DNA of 64,000 bases, taken from the NCBI GenBank assembly GCA_951812395.1, contig CATOSD010000002.1, positions 186,001 through 250,000 of the forward strand, read 5' to 3'. Positions 49,594-50,749 of this stretch are shown here, piece by piece. Origin of the DNA: an uncultured Dehalococcoidia bacterium (GTDB lineage: Bacteria > Chloroflexota > Dehalococcoidia > Lucifugimonadales > CATOSD01). Position 1 is the first letter of the stretch; every line of letters begins with the position of its first letter. The notes under the pieces are model-generated. The model saw nothing but the letters and a program-made list of their open reading frames with translations, was not told the DNA's origin and ran no database searches. Both the position numbers and the translations under genes were made by a program.

Positions 49594-49764
49594 CCAACAC
49601 ACTGCCTCAGCCGGCCCATAGCGAGGACGCCAATCGACAGCGCCAGCGACTCGAACCGCGAGCAGTCCCCCGACGCGGAACCGATCCGCGAAGACGCGAT
49701 AAGGCGCCTCGTACTCGACGCCGTCTCCCCCGACCTGGGACTGTCCGCGCTGCGCGGGTTCAAG

Positions 49765-50001
49765 ATGGACCTGTCGGCCAACAGAGGGTTCCACAAGGTC
49801 TTCTTCTCCGCCAGGTGCGAGTGCAAGACAGTCGCGCTGCTCAGCGTCGAGGTGTCGGAGGAAAAGACGGTGGAGGACGTGGAACGCGCGCTCCCGTCGC
49901 TGGTAGGCAGGCTTGAAGAACAGGCCCGGTCCTTCTACAATATGAACTGTGAAGTACATGCCAGGATGAGGCTCGGCCCTGCCGCGGGCGGCCCCCGCTA
50001 G
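49765..50001 (+). CDS. Small hypothetical protein upstream of the selenoprotein pair
   Basis: From ATG 49765 this gives 78 residues; it is not recognised. It contains a CEC pair in FFSARCECKTVALLSVEV and ends in a Gly/Pro-rich tail. The frame is open upstream and reads plausible protein (IREDAIRRLVLDAVSPDLGL), so the true start is probably earlier. An ATC at 49633 preceded by GAGGA is one option, but no standard start codon is available there. It lies between tRNA-Val and the FTR-like selenoprotein gene, 39 nt before the latter, in one direction. Confidence 0.5.
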   Translation: MDLSANRGFHKVFFSARCECKTVALLSVEVSEEKTVEDVERALPSLVGRLEEQARSFYNMNCEVHARMRLGPAAGGPR

Positions 50002-50040
50002 CCTGGCCACAACCGGGGACCGCGCCACAGGAGGTTTGCC

Positions 50041-50472
50041 ATGCCGCCAAGAAAGCGACGCGAGCTTACCCAGGAAGAGGCGATGGAGCGCGCCGTCAAG
50101 TTCTCGGAAAGATACGTCGAGCGCGGGCCGTACGAGTTTTTCCCCGAAGGCGAAGTCGTAACCGTAGTCCAGGAGGGACTGGCCGAGAATGAGCGCCTGT
50201 ACGGTTACCGATACTGCCCTTGAATGCCGCTGAGCGGCGATCCCGTCGAGGATCGCAAGAAGATCTGCCCCTGTGAACGCCACCACGAGGACATCGAGCG
50301 CGACGGCTTCTGCATTTGAATGTTCTTCGTGAGCGAAGAGTTTCTTCGCAAGTACGAGCAGGGCGAAGACGTTGTCCAAACGGTTGATGAAGCGGTGCCT
50401 GTCGGTGAGGAGCTTTTCGCCGACACCGGCGGCAAGCGGGAGTTCAACCAGCGCCGGCGCGAGGGCGCGTAA
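50041..50472 (+). CDS. Ferredoxin-thioredoxin reductase catalytic-subunit-like protein, predicted double selenoprotein (Sec61, Sec93)
   Basis: Reading both TGA codons (50221-50223 and 50317-50319) as selenocysteine gives 143 residues ending at TAA 50472. The core is YRYCP-Sec, then GDPVEDRKKICPC, then DIERDGFCI-Sec-MFFVS. This is the CPC...CPC...CxC pattern of the FTR catalytic subunit, which uses a 4Fe-4S cluster to reduce disulfides with electrons from ferredoxin. In that family the third Cys of the first motif and the last Cys of the final motif form the active-site disulfide, and the other four bind the cluster. Here the active-site two are Sec and the four ligands (59, 76, 78, 91) stay Cys. 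AGGAGG precedes the ATG. Both TGAs have SECIS-like hairpins. Confidence 0.88.
50237..50256 (+). promoter_or_regulatory. Predicted SECIS element for Sec61 of the FTR-like protein
   Basis: A perfect 7-bp stem, GCGATCC with GGATCGC, closes the loop CGTCGA. The loop G is 22 nt after the TGA and is followed by U, fitting the bacterial SECIS pattern. The fold was judged by eye. Confidence 0.65.
50333..50349 (+). promoter_or_regulatory. Predicted SECIS element for Sec93 of the FTR-like protein
   Basis: A perfect 7-bp stem, GCGAAGA with TCTTCGC, closes the loop GTT. The loop G is 21 nt after the TGA and is followed by U. A competing hairpin (50323-50340) lies closer to the TGA. Confidence 0.6.
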
Positions 50473-50503: not shown

Positions 50504-50749
50504 ATGGAAAACATCGTTCAGGTTTACAGCTCGACCGGTTGAGGCCCCTGCCATATGGTGAAAGTGTACCTTTCACGCAAGGGCGTAGAATTCGACGACT
50601 TCAACGTCTCCACAGACCGCAACGCGCTCAAGAACATGATCAGCATGGGCTACCGCACCACGCCTATAACCGTTATAGGCGACAACAAGGTGGTGGGCTA
50701 CAGCCCTGCCAAGCTGGACGAGGCGCTGCAAGCCGCCGGCATAGCCTAG
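50504..50749 (+). CDS. Glutaredoxin-like protein, predicted selenoprotein (Sec13)
   Basis: Reading the TGA at 50540-50542 as selenocysteine gives an 81-residue glutaredoxin/NrdH-like protein. It starts MENIVQVYSSTG-Sec-GPC, so Sec replaces the N-terminal, attacking Cys of a C-G-P-C active site. The rest fits the thioredoxin fold: VEFDDFNVSTDRNAL, then YRTTPITVIGD with the cis-proline TTP, and YSPAKLDEAL at the end. Without readthrough an internal ATG would give a protein lacking the active site. AGGAG lies 8 nt before the ATG. It is 31 nt downstream of the FTR-like selenoprotein gene and probably its redox partner. Confidence 0.88.
50558..50576 (+). promoter_or_regulatory. Predicted SECIS element for Sec13 of the glutaredoxin-like protein
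   Basis: A perfect 7-bp stem, GTGAAAG with CTTTCAC, closes the loop TGTAC. The loop G is 24 nt after the TGA and is followed by U. It lies within the coding sequence, as bacterial SECIS elements do. Confidence 0.7.

Follow-up and report, generated by a model that had tools for sequence, protein, structure and literature searches.

In the catalytic cycle of ferredoxin-thioredoxin reductase (FTR), exchange with the substrate takes place at the third Cys of the active-site pattern, and the sixth Cys faces the cluster. A selenoprotein glutaredoxin (Grx) of Clostridium reportedly reduces a selenoprotein MsrA, a 'tandem use of selenocysteine', and resembles the system described here in that a selenocysteine (Sec)-containing glutaredoxin is paired with another selenoprotein; whereas the Clostridium protein donates to MsrA, the glutaredoxin at our locus would be an electron acceptor of a double-Sec FTR. 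FTR, but not GSH/GR, regenerates Grx3 in Chlamydomonas (Zaffagnini 2008, cited in a passage of PMC3866529), a glutathione-free transfer from FTR to glutaredoxin of the kind predicted here for ftrB and grx, although Grx3 is a class II glutaredoxin for which that passage mentions no selenium, whereas grx has a predicted Sec.

The double-Sec FTR enzyme is already known. Passages of two reviews (PMC13188914 and PMC9312934) include an FTR selenoprotein family, and the GOS survey of 2008 (Zhang & Gladyshev, PMC2398784) presents, in its passage on FTR, two selenoprotein sequences, one of which has two predicted Sec residues corresponding to both redox-active Cys. The initial annotation of the present locus, which knew of no described double-Sec FTR, was therefore mistaken on this point, as both the GOS survey and the NCBIfam entry NF041072 (FtrB_double_U) already contain it. 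The enzyme described here belongs to that same family, with Sec at both redox Cys; however, neither NF041072 nor the relevant GOS passage names a partner, whereas a Sec-type glutaredoxin and an ORF of no known family lie alongside the FTR gene here. These genes occupy a small part of the window, the 64,000-nucleotide stretch of an uncultured Dehalococcoidia genome that was analysed (Table 1).

Table 1. Features of the ftrB/grx locus, in window coordinates (U, predicted Sec).
Feature	Position	Strand	Basis
Conserved upstream ORF without known family, invariant C-x-C and C..H	49687..50002	+	blastp clustering, alignment
ftrB, catalytic subunit of FTR, 143 residues including U61 and U93	50041..50472	+	translation read through, PF02943, NF041072, structure alignments
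TGA 1, U61, third Cys position of ftrB	50221..50223	+	sequence, alignment to FTR-family chains
SECIS-like hairpin 1, 7-bp stem, 6-nt loop	50237..50256	+	folding, codon columns, pair counts
TGA 2, U93, sixth Cys position of ftrB	50317..50319	+	sequence, alignment to FTR-family chains
SECIS-like hairpin 2, 7-bp stem, 3-nt loop	50333..50349	+	folding, codon columns, pair counts
grx, glutaredoxin, 81 residues, U13 in STGUGPC	50504..50749	+	translation read through, PF00462, alignment
TGA 3, U13, first active-site position of grx	50540..50542	+	sequence, read-through translation
SECIS-like hairpin 3, 7-bp stem, 5-nt loop	50558..50576	+	folding, codon columns, pair counts

The reductase gene and its TGA codons

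Read through both TGA codons, ftrB scored 80.5 bits against Pfam PF02943 (FeThRed_B) and 227.9 bits against NF041072, 'FtrB family double-selenoprotein', of which it is a member (cut-off 160; three relatives scored 216.3, 216.3 and 228). In three alignments to FTR-family chains of known structure, the CPC..CPC..CxC columns corresponded to C59, U61, C76, C78, C91 and U93, confirming the initial annotation both in its placement of the two in-frame TGAs on the active-site Cys columns, the third and sixth of the pattern, and in the positions of the four other Cys given by the read-through translation. The four cluster Cys and two redox positions of PF02943 are thus all present in ftrB; the cluster itself is predicted, and we infer a diselenide beside this 4Fe-4S cluster. 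The architecture is common to the FTR catalytic chain (PF02943; 1dj7, 2pu9, 7bzk), but ftrB differs from it in the predicted Sec at both redox positions and in the lack of a detected variable alpha chain (PF02941), which gave no match in the genome and, among 14 controls, matched Synechococcus elongatus only; thioredoxin is a putative substrate of the ftrB product. The AlphaFold2 model of ftrB, built on a 23-row alignment, was poor (pLDDT 56.3).

A contig scan yielded 32 relatives, in records titled Chloroflexi, Chloroflexota, Dehalococcoidia or SAR202, and the comparison of related genomes at both columns that the initial annotation had proposed gave TGA in 32/32 loci, a count that is silent on the absence of Cys forms because the search was for close relatives and short peptide patterns. 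Elsewhere, FTRs with a single TGA were found: among the loci read, ten (L073, L074, L076-L079 and L124-L127) have TGA at the sixth Cys alone, and one (L052, considered below) has it at the third Cys only; the searches gave additional matches with one TGA beyond these. The existence of both kinds suggests separate entry of Sec at the two FTR positions in different lineages. By eye, two of the ten sixth-Cys loci have a rubredoxin-like tail.

Hairpins and selenocysteine machinery

Bacterial selenoprotein genes are recognised by a hairpin that follows the UGA and has a G at one of its first two loop positions. Each of the three TGAs here is followed by such a SECIS-like hairpin, with 13, 13 and 15 nt between TGA and stem for hairpins 1, 2 and 3, respectively, and one of the two leading loop bases was a G in all distinct windows compared (37/37, 37/37 and 28/28). 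Across these, canonical pairs occupied 248/259, 257/259 and 195/196 cells, against 37–179 of 259 and 45–121 of 196 in slid controls, and two-sided pair changes were few (none in hairpin 1 and one in each of the others). Codon usage within the stems was also constrained: in FTR, using 58 degenerate columns with the residue conserved in at least 90%, single-codon columns numbered 5/14 in stem regions vs 0/44 outside, and in Grx 4/7 vs 0/29, with frozen codons exemplified by Leu CTT (33/33) and Ser TCA (23/23). Fold energies were on average lower than those of synonymous shuffles (mean z -1.58, -1.70 and -1.81), but no more than 17/33, 17/33 and 10/23 sequences reached p<=0.05 for hairpins 1, 2 and 3.

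The Sec genes whose presence the initial annotation had made a check of its reading were all four found in the source genome: selA (541.3 bits), selB (336.7 bits), selD (396.3 bits) and a tRNA-Sec (selC) with anticodon tca. The selD match (G000:C1:1530968-1531885, minus strand) has one in-frame TGA, so that SelD is probably itself a selenoprotein here. The UGA codons of ftrB and grx are accordingly predicted to be read as Sec, and the reading of ftrB as a putative double-Sec FTR is strongly supported by family membership, the alignment of the Cys columns, the related loci, the hairpins and the Sec genes. The reading of TGA as Trp was rejected, since the TGAs lie at catalytic columns, are widely shared and coexist with a tRNA-Sec.

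Glutaredoxin, upstream ORF and their distribution

The third TGA, overlooked in the initial annotation, lies in grx, which begins after a gap of 31 bases downstream of ftrB. The grx product scored 47.4 bits against PF00462 (glutaredoxin; gathering cut-off 22.9) and fell below every cut-off of the named NCBIfam subfamilies (YruB, NrdH, UXX-star; best 73.5 vs 88.55 needed), as did three further members. Database proteins matching grx numbered 63, of which 61 were 54–71 residues long, and in the five short ones that were read (P0003, P0020, P0024, P0028 and P0053) the first Met lies two residues past UGPC and the active site is missing; protein databases thus miss the active site because gene callers stop at UGA. 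Two longer entries cover it: P0010 (83 aa) has W at the U column, which may reflect either translation with code 4 or a genuine TGG codon, and P0065 (80 aa, named NrdH-like) has CGAC. As far as the open-licence PMC literature was searched, what is new in the system is the pairing with a glutaredoxin of Sec type, together with the upstream ORF; no description of the ftrB/grx pair was recognised there, and nothing was found there on FTR with NrdH or on a ferredoxin:disulfide reductase of Methanosarcina. The source genome has another Grx-like match (G000:C2:614771-614995, minus strand), within a frame of 256 aa that contains one TGA and would be like a HUGP/GUXX-star selenoprotein in size.

Among the 32 relatives, grx follows FTR in 22, with TGA at the Grx column in 22/22. 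The other ten (L030-L039), a sister clade 58–67% identical, have the double-TGA FTR without an adjoining grx. The grx product (P0002) used alone as query found nothing in these ten genomes; an alignment-based search with three controls was then run, in which the Grx profile matched 3/3 controls and gave no match in 9/10 sister-clade genomes and one weak match (E 3.6e-4) in the tenth. The pairing is therefore a feature of one branch of the family. By motif count, U is present at both FTR columns in 70/71 sources (the exception, L131, is broken by a run of N) and the Grx motif in 58/71, the 13 without it being L030-L039, two loci of G510 (L111 and L129) and L115, in which UGPC is present in the Grx but preceded by a different residue.

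Profiles made from loci of this kind were also run against 250 genomes of the order, the resulting counts being uncorrected for shared descent. The Grx profile matched 159 genomes at E<=0.001 and 47 at 110 bits or above, and the FTR profile 74, with 46 at 114 bits or above; these score lines were set after gaps had been seen (Grx, 111 to 93 bits; FTR, 114 to 47, omitting the second piece of G554). One TGA was present in 46 of the 47 strong Grx matches, the exception (G548) being a Cys form in a genome without an FTR match, and two in-frame TGAs in 45/46 strong FTR matches (in G579 together with one TAG), the remaining match, in G554, being broken by N. The strong FTR set and the strong TGA-Grx set are the same 46 genomes, in 44 of which the genes are in tandem; in G480 they are divergent, and in G510 they lie about 16 kb apart.

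Fusions of the two domains occur elsewhere. At L052:958-1809 (minus strand), in genome G015 of the same phylum but another class, an FTR continues in the same frame into two Grx stretches, and 24 of the 26 homologues of this fusion contain both PF02943 and PF00462 (P0188-P0211). Eight of the homologues were read, of which seven were all-Cys FTR-Grx proteins and one started past the TGA; P0206 has three Grx stretches after the FTR domain. The TGA-bearing fusion was found in one of the two genomes searched of that class, G015 itself. In G558, G560 and G561 (L116, L118 and L117) another, all-Cys FTR precedes a pair of Grx-like ORFs whose motifs are CGYT and CTIC, so that FTR and Grx genes are neighbours in a second, independent setting.

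The upstream ORF was found by blastp clustering of ORFs near FTR in the window and at all 22 Grx-bearing loci, and in 0/10 of L030-L039, where 4–4.5 kb around FTR was covered. Its C-x-C and C..H residues are invariant among 20 aligned sequences. The only common start codon seen in its frame is ATG 49765, and the conserved N-terminus in the window has none. Nothing in Pfam came near a cut-off and one member tested against NCBIfam had no match; there are 262 homologues, and the named ones are mostly 'hypothetical protein' among the 120 matches listed. The structure model was good (pLDDT 87.7), and Foldseek of it against PDB returned no match at E<=0.001. Since the ORF still adjoins FTR in G480 and G510, where Grx has moved, it is possibly the closer partner of FTR. 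In the relay proposed below, its product may serve as an accessory protein or be one of the targets.

A proposed electron relay and competing readings

We propose that the ftrB and grx products form a ferredoxin-driven electron relay through three selenocysteines, without glutathione, a reading to which we give a probability of roughly 60%. Both the electron flow and the selenium chemistry are inferred. Reduced ferredoxin would supply single electrons to the 4Fe-4S cluster, for which C59, C76, C78 and C91 would be the ligands; the diselenide that joins U61 and U93 at rest would open, with U93 remaining at the cluster between two one-electron steps; the U61 selenolate would attack the oxidised U13-C16 selenenylsulfide of grx; and the second electron would allow U93 to free the reduced grx, which could then reduce target proteins. 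The relay is supported by the gene order and the constant TGA positions, by the presence of both genes in the same 46/250 genomes, by the FTR-Grx fusions elsewhere, by the all-Cys FTR beside Grx-like ORFs in G558, G560 and G561, by the conserved hairpins and by the full Sec machinery, with Chlamydomonas Grx3 as a precedent; the double-TGA FTR without grx in the ten sister-clade genomes (one with a weak match) counts against it, as do the upstream ORF as a possible closer partner, the TrxB-like matches given below and the TGA-bearing fusion in one of two genomes of its class. A more specific version is more tentative, and we rate it slightly below even odds: an all-selenium relay, glutathione- and thioredoxin-free, in which a ferredoxin-fed diselenide 4Fe-4S enzyme would form an Fe-Se intermediate and an intermolecular Se-Se bond to a dedicated selenoglutaredoxin, with the upstream CxC ORF as its own third protein.

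The strongest competitor holds that both are true selenoproteins encoded in one operon and yet not donor and acceptor, FTR reducing a thioredoxin or else the CxC protein encoded upstream, while grx is reduced by a TrxB-like flavoenzyme. NrdH proteins are reduced by a TrxB-like flavoenzyme, and the genome has two matches of TrxB type that score 317.7 and 277.9 bits, under the cut-off of 343.45, so that such a protein could be an alternative reductant of grx. The sister clade, which retains its FTR in the double-TGA form without grx, and the persistence of the upstream ORF beside FTR in G480 and G510 are also consistent with this arrangement, but it fits poorly with the occurrence of both genes in the same 46 genomes, including two where they are not in tandem, and with the fusion proteins, and we consider it unlikely.

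Far less probable is a metal or metalloid role, in which mercury or arsenic species would be bound or reduced by the selenolates, as proposed for UXX-star selenoproteins. Its basis is a weak similarity of grx to the UXX-star families, with scores of 41.1 and 37.3 bits that lie under the cut-off; the Sec residues of these families are proposed to bind metal in a passage of PMC13188914; however, that passage gives these families as UxxT, whereas grx retains UGPC, with the second Cys invariant in 18 aligned sequences, and no metal-related family was found among the three genes in Pfam or NCBIfam. That the TGAs are sequencing errors or pseudogene marks, as the shortening of the grx database proteins to the part after the TGA might suggest, can be dismissed, since the same TGAs lie at catalytic columns across many separate records (two, L021 and L024, without 'MAG' in the title), protein and hairpin conservation goes on downstream of them and the Sec machinery, tRNA-Sec included, is complete.

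With the proposed relay, the double-Sec FTR, a family known from sequence alone (2008, one GOS read), is now tied to a specific partner, and the question of why Sec replaces both redox Cys of an iron-sulfur enzyme becomes testable. If the relay reading is true, FTR would feed a glutaredoxin in non-photosynthetic bacteria.
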